This document shows positions 498-18,247 of a stretch of 31,494 bases of DNA, piece by piece. The DNA is from a virus. The DNA is taken from positions 1 to 31,494 of IMG/VR virus record IMGVR_UViG_3300020190_000238; one strand, 5' to 3'. The translations under genes were made by a program, and so were the position numbers. The first letter of the stretch is position 1, and each line of letters starts with the position of its first letter. A model generated the notes under the pieces. The model made no database searches and had not been told where the DNA came from. It saw only the letters and a list, made by a program, of their open reading frames with translations.

Positions 498-548
498 AGT
501 TTTGTTAACATAACCCCCCTAAATATGCCCAGTTATGTTAACAAAACT
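498..548. repeat. Perfect 17-base inverted repeat
   Basis: AGTTTTGTTAACATAAC (498-514) is exactly complementary to 532-548, around a 17-base loop. Each arm also contains the small palindrome TGTTAACA (503-510 and 536-543). No T tract follows, so a standard terminator is unlikely. It may be an operator bound by a dimeric or tetrameric protein, an mRNA hairpin between two small genes, or a transcript-end stabiliser. Confidence 0.75.
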
Positions 549-6217: not shown

Positions 6218-9200
6218 ATGATAGAAACAAGAATATCTGCAAAAACAGTAATAGAAGGACAAATACCTCTTTTCATGCAAGAGGAGTATCCCCTGTTTAG
6301 TCCTTTTTTAAAACAATACTACGAATCTCAAGAATATTTTTCATCCCCGATTAATATTGTTAAAAATATTGATCAACTTGTGAAAGTTGGTACTTACACT
6401 TCAAATTTAATCACAAACCAATCCACAATAACAACTGAGTTTGTTGATTTTACTGACTCAATAATCTATGTCGAAAGCACAATAGGTTGGCCTGATAGAT
6501 ATGGATTATTAAAAATTAACGAAGAAATTATTACATACACCGGAATCGGATCAACTTCTTTTACTGGATGTATTAGAGGATTTAGTGGAATTACAACTTA
6601 TAATTTTTATGGCAAACAAGTTAGTTATGAGACAACATTAAATGATAATCACGAAATAGGGTCTGAGGTAAAAAATCTTAGCACTTTATTTTTAAAGCAA
6701 TTTTTTAATCAAATTAAATCTCAATTTTTACCTGGATTTGAAAATATTCAATTTCATGCAAATTTAAACCAACCCTCTCTTCTAATACAATCAAAAGATT
6801 TTTACACAACTAAAGGAACTCCAGTAGCAAATAATATTTTATTTAAATCTTTATATAACGAAAAAGTAGAAACAATTAAACCTCAAGATTATCTTCTCAA
6901 ACCATCTGCGAATGATTATAGATTAGTAAAACAATTAGTTGTAAGTCCAATTGAAGGAGATCCACTTAATCTTTCTGGGGGGATTCTTTTTCAAGAAGTA
7001 AAAACTTCAACAGGAATTACAAGTTCATATGGGTCTGTTTCTGATGTAGAGCCTAATTTTAGAGGTAGAGATCCATATTATACAGTGGATATTGATTTTG
7101 GATATGACCGTGACCTCAGAACTTTTGGAAGTATTTTTGGTGAATTTAAAATACATCCCAAAACTAAAGTTATTGGGGTTTCTTCCTCATCTTTATTTGT
7201 TGACTCTACAGTTGGATTTGCAAATTCAGGATCTATTAGTGTTACTGATGTTGTAGTAACTTACACTGCAAAAACAAATAGTGAATTTTTAAATTGTGTT
7301 GGAATTTCAACAGCTAAAATAGGTGAAAATGTAACTTCCACAGACTATAGAACTTATGGATTTGATGCAAATCAAAATCAAATTGATGTAAGAGTGACTG
7401 GAGTATTAGAAAAAATAATTGTAGATGACAATAATGATAATGAAAACTATTATCATAGACCAGAAGATCCGATTCTTGTAAGAAGTCTTGGAATTATTAA
7501 AGATAAGAAAGATCCAAAATTTAATTCTTGGAATTTTAATACATCAACAAAATTTAATGCAAGTTTAATAGTATGGAATGGGCAATATTTTGTTGTAACA
7601 ACTTATGAAGATCACAATCTTTTGTTAAATGATGACATTCAGTTTGTGGATAAAAGTAACAATACTATTATCGTTGGAAGAGTTAGAAAAATATTATCTG
7701 ATAAAAGAATACAAGTATCTGCAAATTTGGATAGAAGTCGGACAGATCTTCAAAACTCTTATTTTATAAGAAGATCTCTAAAAGTATCTCAACCATTAGT
7801 AACCACAAATAGTTTTAAACAAGATGTTCAAGATGTGTATGATAATAAAGGAAATATTATTGTTTCCTCAGCATCTTTACCTTCTTATGAAATAAGAGCA
7901 ACAAATAGATCTAAAACTATCAGCATTTCACCCAACACATTAATTACCGAATTGACAATACCAAATCATAATTTTTATAGTGGTGATATTGTTTATGTTT
8001 CTTCGGCATCAACAGTTTTCACTGAAAAAATTAAAAACTATTTCGTAAAAAAAATTGATAATAATAATATAAAATTAGGTTTAAGTAATTCAAATATTGC
8101 TAATAATTTGTTTTATGAAATTAATAATTCGTCAGGATCAAATCTGGTACTAAATTTAACTCCATTAAACAATGTTAACAAACAATTAACATCTCAAAAA
8201 TTAATTAGAAAAATTGATTCACCAGTTAATATATCAAAAAAAGAGAAAACAATACCTAATGAAAAAATTGGTATTCTTGTAAATGGTGTTGAAATTTTTA
8301 ATTATAAATCTCAAGAAGTTGTTTATTATGGAGCAATTCAATCTATTGATGTTTTGGATGGTGGTGAGGATTATGATGTAATAACCCCCCCAATAATTTC
8401 TATTACAGATTCTACTGGAGTTGGAGCTACAGGAAATTGTGCAATAAAAGGGTCACTAAAATCAATTGAAGTTATTGATGGTGGATTCGATTATTTAAGC
8501 ACGCCGTCAATTAACATAAGTGGTGGAAATGGTTTAGGTGCTGTAGCTGAAGCAAAATTATCTAAAATTTATCATGATGTTTATTTTAATGCTTTAGGAA
8601 TTTCAACTTCTCTTGGTGGATTTATAAGTACCTCAACAAATATTATTGGGTTTAATACTGAGCATAAATTTAGTTTGGGTGAAGGTGTTATTTATAATTC
8701 TTTTGATGGGACCAAAATTGGAATAGGATCTACATCAGGAGATGTTTCCACAAAACTTTATCTTCAAGATAATTCTGTTTATTATGTTTCGGTTATTGAT
8801 GATAATAACATTAAAATTTTTAACACAGAAGATGATGCTTTTAAAAATATTAATGAAATTAATATTACATCTACAGGAACAGGAAATCAAAGATTAAGAT
8901 CTATAAGGAGAAAAAATATTTTAACTTCAGTTAATATCATAAGTGGTGGGAGCAAATACGAAAATAAATTAAGATTAGTTCAACCTGCAGGAATTAATAC
9001 TGCAAATAATAGTATTAATATTTTAAATCATGGATTTGAGTCTGGTGAAATAGTTACATATAATACTTCAGGAACTCCCATAGTAGGATTAAACACATCC
9101 ATAAACTTTTACATAATAAAAATTGATCAGGATAATTTTAGATTAGCACCTGCAGGAATTGGGACCACAATTTCAAATACAAGTTATCTCACAAATCAAT

Positions 9201-12200
9201 ATGCAATTTTACAAACACAAGGAACATCAAATCATTTCTTTAACTATCCACCAATAACTGTAACAGTTAAAGGAAATATTGGAGTATCTAGAACAAATAC
9301 GGAAAAATATCAAGCAACTGTAAGTGCTAAGTTTAGAGGGTCTGTCACGTCTATTCAAGTTACAAATGGTGGATCTGGATATGGTTCAACAGATGTTATT
9401 AATTTTGATAAACAACCAATAATAACATTAAATAGTGGATCTGAAGCTATATTAAAACCAATAATAAGTGGTGAAAAAATTATAGATGTGATTGTTTTAA
9501 ATTCAGGAAAAGATTATAATTCAAATCCATCTTTTGTCTTTTATGGTGGAGGATCATATGCAAAATTATCCTCGGTAATTACAGAAGGTAAAATTACTAG
9601 TGTTAAAGTCATTACTGGTGGAGTTGGATTTTCTACAAATAAAAGTGAAATTTCTGTTGTTCCAAGTGGAAAAAATGTAAAATTACGAGCAAACATTAAA
9701 AAATGGACCGTCAATCTTGTAGAAAAATATAAAGATATTTTTTCACAGTCTAGAGATGATGGTATTTTAATTCCTGGACCTTTAAGTGGATTACAATATG
9801 TAAATTTATTTGCCCCAAGATCTTTGAGAGAAACACTTCCCTCAAAAAATAATGATGGATCATTAAATTATATCAATCAAGATTTAATTTTTAACACCTT
9901 TGAAGAACTCTCTACTGTTCACTCTCCCATTATTGGTTGGGCATATGATGGAAATCCAATCTATGGACCATATGGGTATTCCTCTGCCACTGGAGGCACT
10001 ATTAAAGCGATGGTGCCTGGTTATGTAAGAAAATTGAGTTTAGATAGGCCAACAGGATTTATAGATGGATTTTTTGTAGAAGATTATACTTTTTTGGGAG
10101 GGGAAGATTTAGATGAAAGTAATGGAAGATTTTGCAAAACACCAGATTATCCAAATGGAGTTTATGCATATTTTGCAACTATAGATCCAGTCAATTATGA
10201 TTCTACATACGGAAACTACAGAAGGCCTATTTTTCCATATTTAATTGGAGATTTTTATAAATCAAAATCAAATAATTTTAATAACCTACCTTCCTCAAAT
10301 CAGGAAACTTTTGATTTAACAACTGGAGAATATATTAAAAATACTTATCCATATAAACTCAATAATACAGAAAGTGAATATGAATTTATAGTGCAACCAT
10401 TTAAAATTTCTAATCAACTAGCAATAGTTGATTCCATTACTAATGGATCTATTGAATCCATAGGAATTTCAAGTATTGGATCTAATTATAAAGTCGGAGA
10501 TTCAATTGTTTTTAATAACAACAATACAAATGGAAAAGGATTAATTGCTCGTGTAAATGAAATTGTTGAAAAAGAAATTGTTTCTATTGAATCAATTACA
10601 AATACCATTGAAAATGTTTCTTTAAATATTATTGATACAAATGGAACAATAGAGGGAATAACCACAACTCCACACAATTTATTCAATCTGGATATTGTCA
10701 ATGTTTCTAAAATATCTGATGAAAAATTTATTAAACTTTCTGGATTTTATCCAATTAATGTTTTAAGAAACAATTTTATTTTATCATCTGGAATTGCAAC
10801 ACCAGGAGTAACTGGATTAACAACATTTTTATCTTTTATAAACACAGTTAATGAAACTAACCTAAGACCAAATGATATTTTAAAAATAACCAGTAGTTCA
10901 GGTGTTAGCACAGAAAAATTATTAGTTCTTAATGTAGACAACACTTTCAATAGAGTTAGAGTCAAGAGACAGCACGAAGGAACTATAGGATATGCTTACA
11001 GTGCTTTTACAGTTGTAAATGAAGACCCACGTAGATTTACTTATAGTAGTGGGTTTTCTACCTCAGTAAATACAAATATACAAAGAAAAATATTTTTTAA
11101 TCCACAAACTTCTGTTGCAATAGGAACAGTTGGATCTGGCACTACAATTTATATACCCGAGGGATCCGAGTTCAGGCAAAGATTCGTACGTTTACAATCA
11201 ATTTATCTACCAAGTCATGGATTCATTACTGGACAAAGATTAGTTTACTCAAATGAGGGAAATACCTCATTATCAATATCTACAAGTGGTATTGGAACCA
11301 TAACAACATTAGGTAATAATTCGAGTGTATATGTAGCTAAATTTACAGACGATTTAATTGGAATTTCTACACTTCCAATTGGAATCGGATCAGCTGGAGG
11401 ATTTGTTGGTGTTGGGTCTACAGCAAATTTACTTTATTTCTTATCTTACGGAACAGGATTATTTCACAGTTTAAAAACTCAAGAACAGGAAATAACATCT
11501 ATTATTCAAAAAAATATTTGTACATTAACATCAAGAAAAAATCATGGACTATCTCTAAACTCATTATTTAATCTAAATGTAGTTCCTGGTATAAGTACAA
11601 CAGTAATCATAAAATATAATTCTTCTAATAGAAGATTAGTAGTAAATCCAAAATCTTTTAGTGGATCTGGAATCAATACTTCTACCAGTTCTATAACGAT
11701 AGAAAATCATGGATATCAAACTGGAGATAAGTTGATTTATACATCAACTTCTGTGGCATCTGGATTGATCAATGATAAAATTTATTATGTTGTAAGATTT
11801 GATAAAGACTCATTTAAATTAGTTGATAATTATTATCAAAGTACAATCTCCAATCCAAATTATGTAAGTATAGCCAGCACGGGTTCATCTCATGAACTTT
11901 CTCAGATAAATCCTCCTTTAGAAATAATTAATGGATATAATGTAATCTTTGATTTATCAGATTCATCTTTAGCAGATATTAATGGTGGGTCAAAAGTTCA
12001 ATCATTTGAGTTTGATTTATATGAAGATTCATCCTTCACTAATAGATTTATTACTTCCTTAGACTCATCATCATTTGAAGTAGTAAAAACTGGAATAGTT
12101 GGGGTAACTAATGATGCCAAATTAACCCTCTCCGTTAATAATTTTATTCCCAAAAAACTTTATTATAAACTTACTCCACTTTTTGGAAAAACCTACCTAT

Positions 12201-15200
12201 CTAGAGAAAAATTAGAAATCATTATTGATAAAGATATTTTGGATGGAAGTTCATTAAATTTTATCAATAGTAAATTTAATGGATCTTATTCAATTGCAGG
12301 AGTTGGTTCCACAACTTTTAAATTTAACTTAAATTCATACCCAGAAAAAACATCCTATACTTCTAGTAATTCACTTATTGAATATAAATCAAAAGAATCC
12401 AATGCAGTAGGATCCATATCAAAAGTTGAAATTTTATATGGTGGTTCTTCTTACGAAAATGTTCCTGGAATTTCCTCGATAACTTCATTAAATGGATCTG
12501 GATCCATTTTGTTTCCTTTTAGTTCAAAAATAGGTAAAATATTAAAAACTTCAATTCAAACTCCAGGATTTGAGTATCCATCAGATCCAACATTAAAACC
12601 AATAGCAGAACTTACTCAAAGAATTTTTATTGATCAGTTGTATACTATTCAATCTGTTGGATTGTCTTCTGGAGGTAAAAATTATTCTACTCCACCCTCT
12701 TTTGTAGTAATAGACCCAATTACCGATGAAATAAAATCAGAAGTAAAACTAAAATCATATCTCAGTGGAAATATTGTAAGTAAAGTAGAAATTCTATCAA
12801 ATACAAAAACTTTGTTTGGTCCACCAAAAATTATTACGATTAATAATAATAATGGAATTGGTGTTACAAATATATCCTTCAATTCAACTACAAAATTAGT
12901 AACAATAAATCTTGCCACTGGATTTAGTACTGCTAAAGAGTTCCCATTCCGCATAGGAGATAGGATTTTAATAGAAGGTATCGGAATTGGAACTCTGGGA
13001 TCTGGATATAATTCTGCGAATTATAATTATAAATTATTTACTTTAACAGGCGTTACCAGTGCAATTGGTGGATCAACTGGCATCTTATCATTTAAACTTG
13101 ATAATCAAAATAATCCAGGAACATTTTCTAGGGAAAATTCTCTTGCAAATGGATCAAATTCATATGGAAGAATTGTCCCCGAAAAATATCTTCCAGTTTT
13201 TAATCCAATAGTTTATTTTGGTGAATCCAAATATAACAAAAATGAAGAAATATACATTGGAAATGAAAAAGTTGGAGATGTTGTAAGTTGGAATGAGGTT
13301 TCAAAATTATTAAAACTCACTAATACAAAAAGAAAACTTATCTCTGGAGAGGTTATTAGAGGAAAAACCACAGATAATAGATCAAAAGTTGTTGATTCTT
13401 ATTCTTCAAATGCAACATTTGTTGTAAGTTCTTTCAGTGAAAAATTAAAAGATTATAGTAAAGATACCGGAAGATTAAGTACATTTTTACAAGTATTGCA
13501 AGACGGTGACTATTATCAAAACTTTTCTTATTCATTAAAATCAAAAGTTCCTATCGAAAAATGGGATGATAAAGTTGATTCACTAACTCACACTCTTGGG
13601 TTTAAAAAATTCTCTGATTTACAAGTAGAGTCCGAATCTGTTGGTATTAAAACAACTTTTAATATTTTAGAATCAAATCTATCATCATTTGCAGATTTAA
13701 TACAAGAAAAGTCTTTTGATTGCTACGAAGATTTTGCATTTGCTAAAGAATTTACAAAAACTTTTGGTGGTTCTTTAGTTTCCGATCAAATTTATTTTGA
13801 TAATTTAAGGATTTTAGATTACACTGAATTTATATCAAATAGAGTGCTTGAAATTGACGATATCAGTGATGAATTTGATGATACTCCTAGTATTTTTAAT
13901 TATGCCATCATTGGAACCTTTGATATAACAAAATACAATTCTGCACAGTTCTATGTTTTAATTAAAGATGCTCGTTTCTTTGGAGAAAAAGAAATCATCA
14001 TTGTGAATGTTGTCTACGATGGAACAAATGGATACTTAACAGCATACGGCAGAAACGAAACTGTATTGGATTTGGGAGAATTTTCTTTTAGAAGATCTGG
14101 GAATGTTGGTGAAGTACTTTTCTATCCCAAAAAATACGAATATAATAGTTATGATTTTGCAAATATTAGTGTTAACATTGCTGGAGCCGGAACTTCTACT
14201 GTTGGTGTAGCAAACCTTGGTGATATAGTAAGTTTTGCAAGCACGGCTGTTGCAATATCATCATCCCCTTCACCATCTGCAAATACAATTGTATCAATTT
14301 CAACAAGTCAATATACTTCAGCAAAAATTTTATTGGCAGCTTCCTCGTCAAATGATAATGTTCAATTCAATGAAATTAATTTAACACATGCTGGGGGAAA
14401 CACCTACTACGAATTCTTTGGTGATGTTGATTCTGGAGATTTAACATCTTCTTTTGGTGAAGGAATTGTTGGATCAGTTGGTGTTACAACATCATCGGGA
14501 AATACTTTGGTTACTTTTACTCCAAATCAAAATCTTACCGTAAATGTAAGGGCACTTTCTATACTTTTAGGAAATACCTCTACAACAGGTGTAGGGACCT
14601 CTGTTTTATATAAAGGTCAGTTGTCATCACATTATGTGTCAATAGCGTCTTCTAGCTCACCACAGGCATCTGTGATTGCTGGATTTGGAACTACCAGCGC
14701 CAATCCACACGAAGGTGCTCTTTATTATGTTCAAATTCACGATACAACAAATAATAGAGTTCAATTTTCAGAACTTGTTCTTACAAATGATTTTACTCAT
14801 ACTCCAACAATTTCTGAATATGCAGTTTTAACCTCTGGTGTTGAATTAGGAACTATTGGAGCAGCAAAATCTACGACCAATACAAATTTAACTTTTATTC
14901 CTCTTCCAAATATTGATGTTCAAGTCAGAGTTTATCAGAAAACACTTCAACTAACTCCAAAACAATCTCCAAATGATATTGATCTTAATAGTGCAATTAT
15001 TAGGTCAGATATTATACCATTAAGTTTTGAAGGGACTCAATTATCTACTAAAAAATCTTTTAATCTTACTCATAGAACTTCGCCAATATTCAAAAAAATT
15101 ATTGATGGATCTTCGTCTTCAGTAGTTGATGTATTTAATAATTCCATCAATATTCCAAATCATTTCTTTGTTACTGGAGAAAAAATAGATTACTCTGTTT

Positions 15201-18200
15201 CTGCGGGTGACACTAGAATTGGAATCGCAACAACATCAATTGCTGGAATTGGAACAACAAGTCTTTTACCAACAACATTGTATGTTGTAAAAATAAATGA
15301 TAGTCTAGTTAAGTTTGCAGATAGTCCACAAAAAGCTCTCAAGTTTAATCCAGAAGTTTTAGACATTACTTCGGTCGGTATCGGAGCATCTCATACCTTT
15401 GCTTCAAATTATAAATCAAATTCAAAATCACTCATTTGTATTGACAACATTATTCAAAATCCTATTCTTAAAACTAATAAAACAAGTTATCTTATTCAAG
15501 ACACTAATGAAGCAATCTCTGTCTCTCTATTGCTTTTTGATGATGTTCGTGGATTTTATGCTGGAGATTTAATAAAAATAGATGATGAATTTTTATTAAT
15601 TACTGATGTAGGTATTGGAGCTACTAATGCAGTTTCTTGTAGACGGGAACAATTAGGAACAATATCTACAATTCATACAACTGGATCAACTATAATAAAA
15701 TACAGTGGAAATTATAATATTGTAGATGATATAATTTATTTTATTGAAGCTCCACATGGAGATGAAGTTGACACCGAAAGAATTTCAAGTTTCCAAGGAA
15801 GAATATTCCTAAGGTCTCAATCAGTTGGATCTTCTCTAAGTGCTTATTACAATAATGATGTTTTTGATGATGTATCTGATCAATTTAATGGGACTAAAAA
15901 AGTATTTGATTTAAAATCTCAGGGATACCCTATTTCTGGTATTGTTTCCACGACTTCAACTTCTGCAGGAATTTTATTAGTTAACAATATTTTCCAAAAA
16001 CCAAAATATCCAGCAGCGGGGATTGCCCAAACTTACACATATGAAGTTGTGGAAGGTGTTGGTATTTCTAGTGTTATTTTCAGTGGAAATGTGGTTGGAT
16101 TAACTACAAATAATATAACTGGGCCAATGAAATATGATATTAATAGTGCTGGATTACCAAGAGGTGGTATAATTGTTTCAGTAGCTTCTACTCAAGGATA
16201 TGGATTCCAACCACTTGTATCTGCAGGGGGAACTGCAATAGTTTCTATTGCAGGAACAATTCAGTCAGTTTCTATTGGAAATAGTGGATCTGGATATAGA
16301 TCAGGTATTCAAACTTCTATTGTTGTTTCTGTTGCAAATTCTACAGGGGGAAAAATAGCAATTGGAACTGCATCTGCGGTGAATGGAAAAATTGTTGCAA
16401 TCGCAGTGACGTATTCTGGAATTGGATATACAACAACGAATCCACCCAATATAATAATTGATGCACCACTAAATTATGAAAATATTTCTTTAGTTTATGA
16501 TTCTTCTAATAGTGGAATTGGAACTGAGGCTAAAGTTAATATATTTGTTGGTTATGGTAATAGCGTAGTTGATTTTAATATCACTAATAGTGGATATGGG
16601 TATTCCACCGGAAATATTTTAACAGTTGATGTTGGTGGAACAACAGGAATTCCTACTGTATCATCGTTAACATATCGACCATTCAGAATAACTGTTGATG
16701 AAATATTTAAAGATAGTTTTAATGCCTGGTATCCAGGGCAGTTTGTAGTTTTAGATGACTTTGATGATGAATTCGATGGATTTAGAAAAACATTTAAATT
16801 AAAAGAGAATGGAGTTTTGTCAAACTTTATTTCTGCAAAGGGATCACCTCTTCAACTAGATCAAAATCTTCTCATTTTCATTAATGATGTATTACAAATT
16901 CCAGGTGAAGCATATAAATTTGAAGGAGGCTCTCAAGTAGAATTCTATGAGGCACCAAAGGAGGGGTCAAGTGTAAAAGTTTTATTCTATAAAGGATCTG
17001 ATTCCGATATTAGATTTGTCGATGTTGAATCAACAATTAAAGTGGGTGACACATTAACCCTCACTGATAGATTAAGGCCTATATTAGATGAGTATACCCA
17101 AAATCCAAGAGTCGTTACAGAAGTTTCATTTGTTGATTCTGTTTTTACTAATTCATATTTTGGTCCTGGAATTACATCTGATAGTGCAATATCAAGAACA
17201 GTAGAATGGTGTAAGCAAAGAGAAGATTTCTATATCGATGAAGTTCTTATCTCTAAGAGTAGAGAAGAGTTAAATTGTAACATTCATCCAATTACTAATT
17301 TGATCAGACCAATAGGAATTGGAAGCACAGTTATATCTGTTCAAAACACAAAAGCTTTGTTTAATTACACCCCAGAAATTTTACCATCAGGAAAACAGAC
17401 ACTCAGAATTATTAGTCAGGATAATAAAGTTTCTGCTATAGCTACTGCAATTGTATCAGTTGCGGGAACAATTTCCGAAATAAAAATTTCATATGGAGGT
17501 CTTGGATTTAGCACTGTTCCATCCATATCAATCTCAACTCCTCCCTCCGGAACTATTGCTATTGCAACTTGCACTATAAGTGGTATTGGTACAATAAACA
17601 ATGTTATAGTTACAAATCCAGGATCAGGATACACAACGACAAACCCACCCAAAGTTTTGATAGAATCAGAAACCCTCAAATATGAGATAATTACAAATGC
17701 TCAATATGAAGGTGATTTTGGAATAATTAGTGGAGTTGGAACCACGAGTATATCTGGAGTTTCTACTGGTATAACATTTGATTTTTATATTCCCAAAGAT
17801 TCTATTTTAAGAAATTCAAATGAAGTTGGAGTTGCTTTAACAATTTCAGGTATTCAAACTGGATATTATTTTGTTGTTTCTGAATCTGTGATAGGAAATG
17901 GAGTGACTTCAATTAATGACGACGGAAGTGTTCTTGGTATTGGATCAACTTACATTGATAATGTCTATCAAGCATTCGATGTTAAAAATATTACTGGAAA
18001 TGCAGTTGGAGTTGGAAATACTGTAGAATTAGTAAGAGTAATCACTAGTGTGAATTCCTATAATAATTTAACTGGGCTTGGTAATAGTCAGTTTCTTGGA
18101 CTTTTCAGTTGGGGAAGAATTTATAGCTTTGATCGGGGAGTTAATCCTCAAAGCTTTAATGTGGATCTCTCAGGAGGATTGTCTGGAGTAACGACATCAC

Positions 18201-18247
18201 CACTTATTGTTAGATTAAATCCAATGAGATCACTATATACCTCATAA
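6218..18247 (+). CDS. 7: Giant baseplate wedge protein gp7
   Basis: A 4009-residue protein at the place of gene 7; T4 gp7, 1032 residues, starts wedge assembly. Two gp7-like segments are seen: residues about 20-240, with EEYPLFSPFLKQYYES and KDFYTTKGTPVANNILFKSL (compare T4 YDFYSTKGIEASYKFLFKVL), and residues about 2432-2472, with YYQNFSYSLKSKVPIEKW and HTLGFKKFS (compare T4 YYVMKIKSNLPSSRW and HPVGFGF). About 2190 residues separate them and about 1540 follow. The added parts are beta-type repeats: at least 14 GGxGY modules, about seven NHGF-TG-Y modules, a YHYH-like domain (about 1228-1350), two or three tandem beta domains (about 2560-2910) and two FDG-K-F-L modules (from 3217 and 3513). 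No membrane segment or catalytic motif is seen. Giant proteins here are known from marine T4-like phages. One unbroken frame covers it. Confidence 0.88.
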   Translation: MIETRISAKTVIEGQIPLFMQEEYPLFSPFLKQYYESQEYFSSPINIVKNIDQLVKVGTYTSNLITNQSTITTEFVDFTDSIIYVESTIGWPDRYGLLKINEEIITYTGIGSTSFTGCIRGFSGITTYNFYGKQVSYETTLNDNHEIGSEVKNLSTLFLKQFFNQIKSQFLPGFENIQFHANLNQPSLLIQSKDFYTTKGTPVANNILFKSLYNEKVETIKPQDYLLKPSANDYRLVKQLVVSPIEGDPLNLSGGILFQEVKTSTGITSSYGSVSDVEPNFRGRDPYYTVDIDFGYDRDLRTFGSIFGEFKIHPKTKVIGVSSSSLFVDSTVGFANSGSISVTDVVVTYTAKTNSEFLNCVGISTAKIGENVTSTDYRTYGFDANQNQIDVRVTGVLEKIIVDDNNDNENYYHRPEDPILVRSLGIIKDKKDPKFNSWNFNTSTKFNASLIVWNGQYFVVTTYEDHNLLLNDDIQFVDKSNNTIIVGRVRKILSDKRIQVSANLDRSRTDLQNSYFIRRSLKVSQPLVTTNSFKQDVQDVYDNKGNIIVSSASLPSYEIRATNRSKTISISPNTLITELTIPNHNFYSGDIVYVSSASTVFTEKIKNYFVKKIDNNNIKLGLSNSNIANNLFYEINNSSGSNLVLNLTPLNNVNKQLTSQKLIRKIDSPVNISKKEKTIPNEKIGILVNGVEIFNYKSQEVVYYGAIQSIDVLDGGEDYDVITPPIISITDSTGVGATGNCAIKGSLKSIEVIDGGFDYLSTPSINISGGNGLGAVAEAKLSKIYHDVYFNALGISTSLGGFISTSTNIIGFNTEHKFSLGEGVIYNSFDGTKIGIGSTSGDVSTKLYLQDNSVYYVSVIDDNNIKIFNTEDDAFKNINEINITSTGTGNQRLRSIRRKNILTSVNIISGGSKYENKLRLVQPAGINTANNSINILNHGFESGEIVTYNTSGTPIVGLNTSINFYIIKIDQDNFRLAPAGIGTTISNTSYLTNQYAILQTQGTSNHFFNYPPITVTVKGNIGVSRTNTEKYQATVSAKFRGSVTSIQVTNGGSGYGSTDVINFDKQPIITLNSGSEAILKPIISGEKIIDVIVLNSGKDYNSNPSFVFYGGGSYAKLSSVITEGKITSVKVITGGVGFSTNKSEISVVPSGKNVKLRANIKKWTVNLVEKYKDIFSQSRDDGILIPGPLSGLQYVNLFAPRSLRETLPSKNNDGSLNYINQDLIFNTFEELSTVHSPIIGWAYDGNPIYGPYGYSSATGGTIKAMVPGYVRKLSLDRPTGFIDGFFVEDYTFLGGEDLDESNGRFCKTPDYPNGVYAYFATIDPVNYDSTYGNYRRPIFPYLIGDFYKSKSNNFNNLPSSNQETFDLTTGEYIKNTYPYKLNNTESEYEFIVQPFKISNQLAIVDSITNGSIESIGISSIGSNYKVGDSIVFNNNNTNGKGLIARVNEIVEKEIVSIESITNTIENVSLNIIDTNGTIEGITTTPHNLFNLDIVNVSKISDEKFIKLSGFYPINVLRNNFILSSGIATPGVTGLTTFLSFINTVNETNLRPNDILKITSSSGVSTEKLLVLNVDNTFNRVRVKRQHEGTIGYAYSAFTVVNEDPRRFTYSSGFSTSVNTNIQRKIFFNPQTSVAIGTVGSGTTIYIPEGSEFRQRFVRLQSIYLPSHGFITGQRLVYSNEGNTSLSISTSGIGTITTLGNNSSVYVAKFTDDLIGISTLPIGIGSAGGFVGVGSTANLLYFLSYGTGLFHSLKTQEQEITSIIQKNICTLTSRKNHGLSLNSLFNLNVVPGISTTVIIKYNSSNRRLVVNPKSFSGSGINTSTSSITIENHGYQTGDKLIYTSTSVASGLINDKIYYVVRFDKDSFKLVDNYYQSTISNPNYVSIASTGSSHELSQINPPLEIINGYNVIFDLSDSSLADINGGSKVQSFEFDLYEDSSFTNRFITSLDSSSFEVVKTGIVGVTNDAKLTLSVNNFIPKKLYYKLTPLFGKTYLSREKLEIIIDKDILDGSSLNFINSKFNGSYSIAGVGSTTFKFNLNSYPEKTSYTSSNSLIEYKSKESNAVGSISKVEILYGGSSYENVPGISSITSLNGSGSILFPFSSKIGKILKTSIQTPGFEYPSDPTLKPIAELTQRIFIDQLYTIQSVGLSSGGKNYSTPPSFVVIDPITDEIKSEVKLKSYLSGNIVSKVEILSNTKTLFGPPKIITINNNNGIGVTNISFNSTTKLVTINLATGFSTAKEFPFRIGDRILIEGIGIGTLGSGYNSANYNYKLFTLTGVTSAIGGSTGILSFKLDNQNNPGTFSRENSLANGSNSYGRIVPEKYLPVFNPIVYFGESKYNKNEEIYIGNEKVGDVVSWNEVSKLLKLTNTKRKLISGEVIRGKTTDNRSKVVDSYSSNATFVVSSFSEKLKDYSKDTGRLSTFLQVLQDGDYYQNFSYSLKSKVPIEKWDDKVDSLTHTLGFKKFSDLQVESESVGIKTTFNILESNLSSFADLIQEKSFDCYEDFAFAKEFTKTFGGSLVSDQIYFDNLRILDYTEFISNRVLEIDDISDEFDDTPSIFNYAIIGTFDITKYNSAQFYVLIKDARFFGEKEIIIVNVVYDGTNGYLTAYGRNETVLDLGEFSFRRSGNVGEVLFYPKKYEYNSYDFANISVNIAGAGTSTVGVANLGDIVSFASTAVAISSSPSPSANTIVSISTSQYTSAKILLAASSSNDNVQFNEINLTHAGGNTYYEFFGDVDSGDLTSSFGEGIVGSVGVTTSSGNTLVTFTPNQNLTVNVRALSILLGNTSTTGVGTSVLYKGQLSSHYVSIASSSSPQASVIAGFGTTSANPHEGALYYVQIHDTTNNRVQFSELVLTNDFTHTPTISEYAVLTSGVELGTIGAAKSTTNTNLTFIPLPNIDVQVRVYQKTLQLTPKQSPNDIDLNSAIIRSDIIPLSFEGTQLSTKKSFNLTHRTSPIFKKIIDGSSSSVVDVFNNSINIPNHFFVTGEKIDYSVSAGDTRIGIATTSIAGIGTTSLLPTTLYVVKINDSLVKFADSPQKALKFNPEVLDITSVGIGASHTFASNYKSNSKSLICIDNIIQNPILKTNKTSYLIQDTNEAISVSLLLFDDVRGFYAGDLIKIDDEFLLITDVGIGATNAVSCRREQLGTISTIHTTGSTIIKYSGNYNIVDDIIYFIEAPHGDEVDTERISSFQGRIFLRSQSVGSSLSAYYNNDVFDDVSDQFNGTKKVFDLKSQGYPISGIVSTTSTSAGILLVNNIFQKPKYPAAGIAQTYTYEVVEGVGISSVIFSGNVVGLTTNNITGPMKYDINSAGLPRGGIIVSVASTQGYGFQPLVSAGGTAIVSIAGTIQSVSIGNSGSGYRSGIQTSIVVSVANSTGGKIAIGTASAVNGKIVAIAVTYSGIGYTTTNPPNIIIDAPLNYENISLVYDSSNSGIGTEAKVNIFVGYGNSVVDFNITNSGYGYSTGNILTVDVGGTTGIPTVSSLTYRPFRITVDEIFKDSFNAWYPGQFVVLDDFDDEFDGFRKTFKLKENGVLSNFISAKGSPLQLDQNLLIFINDVLQIPGEAYKFEGGSQVEFYEAPKEGSSVKVLFYKGSDSDIRFVDVESTIKVGDTLTLTDRLRPILDEYTQNPRVVTEVSFVDSVFTNSYFGPGITSDSAISRTVEWCKQREDFYIDEVLISKSREELNCNIHPITNLIRPIGIGSTVISVQNTKALFNYTPEILPSGKQTLRIISQDNKVSAIATAIVSVAGTISEIKISYGGLGFSTVPSISISTPPSGTIAIATCTISGIGTINNVIVTNPGSGYTTTNPPKVLIESETLKYEIITNAQYEGDFGIISGVGTTSISGVSTGITFDFYIPKDSILRNSNEVGVALTISGIQTGYYFVVSESVIGNGVTSINDDGSVLGIGSTYIDNVYQAFDVKNITGNAVGVGNTVELVRVITSVNSYNNLTGLGNSQFLGLFSWGRIYSFDRGVNPQSFNVDLSGGLSGVTTSPLIVRLNPMRSLYTS
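9900..10265 (+). other. YHYH-like domain inside gp7, histidines lost
   Basis: Residues about 1228-1350 of gp7 contain WAYDGNPIYGPYGY, then DESNGRF, TPDYPNGVYAYF and FPYLIGDF, in the same order as the YHYH domain (PF14240-like), whose usual form is D-G-x-P-I-Y-G-P-x-G-Y, L-D-x-x-N-G and P-D-Y-x-Y-H-Y-H. Here the H-Y-H is replaced by A-Y-F and only the N-terminal His before GWAY remains, so metal binding through that site is unlikely. The fold is probably kept for a structural or binding role. Confidence 0.7.
13900..14950 (+). repeat. Tandem beta domains inside gp7
   Basis: Three consecutive stretches of about 100-120 codons share one plan: an Ile/Ser start, a T-S or K-Y-x-S-A segment, a strand with V-Q-F-x-E-I or E-I-I-I-V, a Y-x-x-Y-G or E-Y-x-V segment, an L-G-x-F or L-G-T-I turn, then L-x-F-x-P and a V-x-V-R end. 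The second (about 14240-14570) and third (about 14630-14950) are the most alike; the first (about 13900-14170) is more distant. This points to internal duplication. No function is known to me. Confidence 0.55.

Follow-up and report, generated by a model that had tools for sequence, protein, structure and literature searches.

A late promoter inside a start-proximal inverted repeat probably forms part of a two-layer timing device for a small gene of T4-like cyanophage-type viruses

The leaders of T4 genes e, soc and 49 form inhibitory RNA structures on long early transcripts, and late promoters bypass these structures (PMC3014915). In I-TevI, the late promoter is located in a hairpin that hides the start codon on early and middle read-through RNA, and the protein also represses its own late promoter via an overlapping operator (PMC2988022). 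Here we describe an inverted repeat that probably serves as a comparable double lock, in which an RNA hairpin and autorepression would together time the expression of the gene at 549–725. The proposal builds on conservation, stem covariation, a fixed promoter position and co-variation of boxes and protein, all computed from related loci, from which we infer early and late promoter use, a translation block, DNA binding and repression. As in T4 I-TevI, I-TevII, I-TevIII and segB and in Aeh1 mobE, a late promoter lies inside a hairpin, here predicted to hide the start, and the gene is linked to a homing-endonuclease-type protein. The locus differs from I-TevI, which has one overlapping operator, in that two inverted boxes, to which binding is proposed, flank the promoter. 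It further differs from these systems in that the product is the small domain only, without a nuclease, that no Shine-Dalgarno sequence is visible before the start codon (ATG549) and that three natural specificity classes exist. T4 genes e, soc and 49 share the bypass of an RNA structure by a late promoter, as predicted here, but autoregulatory boxes are not described for them and their products are unrelated.

The window, i.e. the whole stretch of 31,494 bases that was analysed, is a virus record with the T4-type baseplate genes gp25 and gp6, and its best nucleotide matches are Synechococcus and Prochlorococcus myoviruses; the source virus is uncultured and of the T4-like cyanophage type. A single open frame of 4009 aa (6218–18247) follows gp25 and gp6 directly and occupies the place of the other baseplate wedge genes in cyanophages. 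The inverted repeat is found near the left end of the window within a block of small genes, between an ORF of 71 aa to which no function is assigned (268–483) and the gene starting at 549 (all features are on the + strand). Its left arm (AGTTTTGTTAACATAAC, 498–514) and right arm (GTTATGTTAACAAAACT, 532–548) are 100% complementary and enclose a 17-nt loop (515–531), and TGTTAACA occurs once in each arm, at 503–510 and 536–543. The earlier note had described perfect 17-base arms, each with an 8-base palindrome, around a 17-base loop between two small genes, and the sequence bears this out in every respect. However, many relatives carry the non-palindromic TGATAGCA/TGCTATCA or TGTCCC/GGGACA in arms that are still complementary, so the inner palindrome is present here but not essential.

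With 17-bp arms, the element is the longest perfect short-range inverted repeat in the window. In dinucleotide-shuffled versions of the window, perfect arms of at least 14 nt with loops of 3–60 nt averaged 0.03 per shuffle; since these counts cover arms of at least 14, the expectation for 17-bp arms (well below 0.01) is extrapolated, and a chance origin of the arm pair is very unlikely. Recurrence at the same place in many viral contigs is stronger evidence than this argument. IMG/VR pattern scans yielded 11 contigs with the same box spacing when the arms were used and 14 when the right arm plus start was used; in each contig from both scans, the right arm is followed immediately by ATGAGACC, with which a homologue of the 549–725 product begins. 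The comparison of relatives that the earlier note had proposed shows the element kept directly 5' of a gene for 55–59 aa in 45 distinct viral loci. It precedes the homologous start codon in 32/32 stand-alone loci encoding LG(E/D)M proteins (EM class) or LGxG(V/S)MIRV proteins (GVM class), and is also present in 13 distinct loci of a third class with LG(K/T)T(D/E)R(I/M)RV proteins (KTDR class). None of the isolated phages searched carries the element, which was found in metagenomic virus contigs only, and an Rfam search with it gave no match. The initial blastn matches were not to the element; they fall in the gene that follows, DUF7249.

PeSL cassettes of T4-type phages are small regulatory stem-loops at the boundaries of exchangeable genes. 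As an intergenic stem among small exchangeable genes, the repeat could be viewed as such a cassette of the T-even kind, with an early promoter and a terminator, or simply as a transcription terminator. This is scarcely credible, however: the long loop contains a promoter that is late, not early, the stem adjoins a start codon, and a sequence scan called no terminator-like site and no T tract at the repeat, the latter absence having already been recorded in the earlier note.

When relatives were aligned, substitutions 3' of ATG549 were found to respect codons and to keep M-R-P-L-K-Y-x-x-L-G. Judged from this pattern, ATG549, directly 3' of the stem, is the true start of the 58-aa protein gene (MRPLKYRHLGEMNILRVPHRT..., 549–725), and the right arm ends at, or just 5' of, the start codon in every case. 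The earlier note had pointed out an ATG at 525 within the loop, which does exist, and had suggested that the hairpin could hide it. Concealment of a start is supported by prediction for ATG549 but not for ATG525, which falls in the late-promoter region, is absent in most relatives and lies in a loop whose length varies (17/18). A mini-ORF in the right arm that overlaps ATG549 (ATGTTAACAAAACTATGA) was also rejected, being absent in the KTDR class.

The earlier note had overlooked a T4-type late promoter inside the loop, CTAAATA at 519–525. The late promoter of Aeh1 is CTAAATA starting at -12 (PMC1524935) and that of cyanophages is NATAAATA (PMC2984593). Counting 12 bases from the C of CTAAATA places the predicted RNA start at 531, one base before the right arm (531–532, the right-arm edge). 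Outside the promoter motif, the loops of relatives vary widely in sequence and in length; in most of them TAAATA, or a variant differing by one base, is found at a constant position, and several have motif variants only (CAAATA, ATATAT, CATACATA and TATAGATA). Wherever TAAATA is present, it lies at -28 to -30 from the ATG in EM/GVM stand-alone loci and at -33 in HNH-linked loci (see below). The same hexamer is found 27–28 nt 5' of late genes of the window, namely gp25 (3898), 27746, 30002 and 2953. Further upstream, a sigma70-type (early) promoter-like site, TTGACA-18-TATACT (11/12), is located at 213–242, and 35/38 related loci have a similar site, at -292 to -380 relative to the start codon. 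The small-gene block of the window also contains a near-identical sigma70-like promoter at 1281–1310.

In the first layer of the proposed mechanism, an early RNA from 213–242 would cross gene 268–483 and run into the hairpin, thus carrying both arms; the 17-bp hairpin would cover the leader up to ATG549 and block initiation. RNA started at ∼531 by the late promoter would have the right arm as its 5' leader and lack the left arm, making it translatable. Folding with ViennaRNA, a check suggested in the earlier note, agrees with this prediction. In the window, the mean unpaired probability from -13 to +6 is 0.16 in read-through RNA and rises to 0.53 in late RNA; across the EM/GVM stand-alone loci, predicted accessibility goes from 0.00–0.30 to 0.31–0.66, the exception being L076, in which the stem is weak (12/17) and the start accessible in both RNAs. 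The window fold has a z of -3.4. An additional outer helix (488–496 with 551–559) was discarded, as its register is not conserved. The locus is thus predicted to combine the features of T4-type control, namely a start region within a read-through stem, a late promoter that excludes the 5' arm and an early promoter upstream.

Stem covariation was assessed in an alignment of 31 EM/GVM loci (29 distinct sequences). Stem cells are paired in 98.1% of cases, with 30 double-sided changes compared with at most 3 in slid register. L028, whose arms are in direct orientation, departs from the perfect stem, as does L076. For the HNH-linked genes, the corresponding values are 83.6% paired and 5 doubly changed pairs, the best register being +2 of the structure tested. 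Counting against a two-layer device, perfect arms could in part be maintained by copying between them. Template switching or gene conversion, acting between the inverted copies, might even account entirely for arm identity, the stem itself not being selected, and the tandem duplicated arm of L074 and L010 together with an inverted loop would be the trace of such events: in L074 (2170–2272; also L002 and L010), arm and loop are tandemly duplicated, giving three boxes, and the loop is inverted relative to other loci, an arrangement suggestive of template switching or inversion. Since this explanation accounts neither for the protein-motif match nor for the constant position of TAAATA nor for conservation in >45 loci, we regard it as very improbable.

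Could the arms instead be an operator only, that is, two boxes of the downstream protein around its promoter, with the hairpin as a by-product without an RNA role? Taken alone, each arm approximates a 16-bp palindrome, the boxes of L028 and L076 are in direct orientation, and the class/box co-variation described below would be expected. On the other hand, the asymmetric GVM and KTDR boxes are inverted in 24/24 cases (11 ATAG/CTAT and 13 TCC/GGA) and the right arm invariably stops at the start codon or shortly 5' of it. Moreover, the HNH-linked genes, which follow the EM/GVM box rule only loosely (L048 and L033), retain pairing even where the box departs from the class rule, as in L071 (TGCTACTT). 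We therefore consider an operator without an RNA role rather unlikely.

In the second layer of the proposed device, the 58-aa protein would be a small DNA-binding protein whose dimers bind a near-palindromic box in each arm (probable upstream box GTTTTGTTAACATAAC within 498–514, probable downstream box GTTATGTTAACAAAAC within 532–548) and, flanking the late promoter, shut it off again. Box flanks (TTxTG...CAxAA) are almost constant across classes, whereas the arm centre follows the protein: it is TTAA in 18/19 EM loci, ATAG/CTAT, ATAT or CTAG in 13/13 GVM loci and TCC/GGA in 13/13 KTDR loci. L036 and L050 are nearly base-for-base alike in upstream gene, flank and loop, but differ at four paired box bases and in a cluster that changes GEM to GPG. 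In addition, the loop CCCCCCTAAATACCCCCA is common to EM arms (L040, L043 and L044) and GVM arms (L066 and L069). A single linked tract cannot explain the class/box match: the arms are separated by the loop, and yet the same loop occurs with different arms. The EM/GVM motif changes ∼6 times on a tree of the gene's 3' part, with one independent pair on well-supported branches, so that tree support alone for co-variation is weak.

A search for box pairs, also proposed in the earlier note, located exact boxes at the gene's own promoter only in nearly all genomes searched: two copies are present in each of 11 contigs of 34–284 kb, the exceptions being the HNH contig G003, which has no exact box, and G018, a cassette-less contig with one (TTTTGATAACAAAA). 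A role as regulator of other genes was rejected, given that, save for the TTTTGATAACAAAA box in G018, exact boxes occur nowhere else. Taken together, the class/box match, the loop evidence and the confinement of the boxes suggest that the arms are most likely the target of the 58-aa protein, which would thereby control its own promoter. Co-variation of the protein motif with both arm centres in three classes likewise lends support to the two-site binding by a DNA-binding protein envisaged in the earlier note.

A hairpin acting alone, with a block in the style of T4 gene e, an embedded late promoter and no arm binding, would be sufficient for the stem covariation, the promoter position and the conserved early promoter; the class match would then reflect linkage, and exchange of entire cassettes next to identical upstream flanks is indeed observed. 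We consider this quite unlikely, as it is difficult to reconcile with L036 and L050, whose loop and flanks are the same while four box bases and the GEM/GPG motif differ, with the occurrence of one loop with both EM and GVM arms, and with a third class that has its own box.

Concerning the protein that would mediate the second layer, an AF2 monomer shows an extended segment (residues 10–18) followed by helices at 19–38 and 43–57 (pLDDT 80); a second AF2 monomer has helices at 20–35 and 40–54 (pLDDT 82). Ribbon-helix-helix repressors include MetJ (8-bp met boxes), Arc and CopG. The arrangement predicted for the monomer resembles theirs in that a short protein has an extended segment and then two helices, and in the paired near-palindromic boxes, with changes in the extended segment tracking the box centre. 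However, no ribbon-helix-helix match to the 58-aa protein was obtained in Pfam, PHROGs, NCBIfam or PDB sequences, no Pfam family scored above cut-off (the closest, PADR1_N, at E 9e-5, is under cut-off), and the predicted model gave no PDB fold match; a ribbon-helix-helix fold is therefore a lead only. No homologues were found in cellular genomes.

About 11 further distinct loci encode a ∼140-aa protein consisting of an HNH-type nuclease part and, C-terminal to it, the same domain as the 58-aa protein, in which the HNH domain is absent. The HNH part matches Pfam HNH at E 0.002–0.004, under cut-off, and annotated phage HNH endonucleases by tblastn at E down to 9e-17. These HNH-linked genes stand behind a similar hairpin, in most cases with the late-promoter motif in the loop, and their upstream neighbour is the gene that also precedes the stand-alone versions. 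We infer that the HNH-less small gene is the derived form, the reverse order being possible. L043, L143 and L139 share an identical upstream flank, followed by an EM, KTDR or HNH cassette; the differences begin at the left arm, indicating cassette exchange. At the same site, L018 (3219–3420) and L019 (621–822) have no hairpin and encode another protein, of 60 aa (MVFAPKYQTPGVTVRVRIPEYY...), which is similar in plan and possibly a distant relative.

These comparisons suggest that the control logic of I-TevI, a late promoter in a start-hiding hairpin combined with self-repression, is also used in cyanophage-type T4-like viruses, here for a tiny gene resembling an HNH endonuclease relative that lacks the nuclease. 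It is conceivable, if doubtful, that the HNH-less mini-genes confer trans-acting immunity against a homing-type endonuclease: having retained its DNA-binding domain and promoter boxes, they could sit on its site, so that an incoming HNH version of the same class would be neither expressed nor able to cut. If so, the three box/protein classes would be diverging immunity specificities, like phage immunity groups. With boxes and motifs matched in each, the three natural classes provide a ready set for studying how a tiny protein reads DNA, and the same set bears on whether nuclease-free genes protect a phage from their endonuclease relatives.

Two other elements were observed in the left part of the window. 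A 52-aa protein (1638–1796) has a weak match to MazE/AbrB-type antitoxins (E 3e-5, just under cut-off). A further inverted repeat, in this case imperfect (20 nt, 80%), is located at 962–1068, and its right arm contains ATTAAATATA, a late-promoter-like motif 49 nt 5' of ORF 1106.
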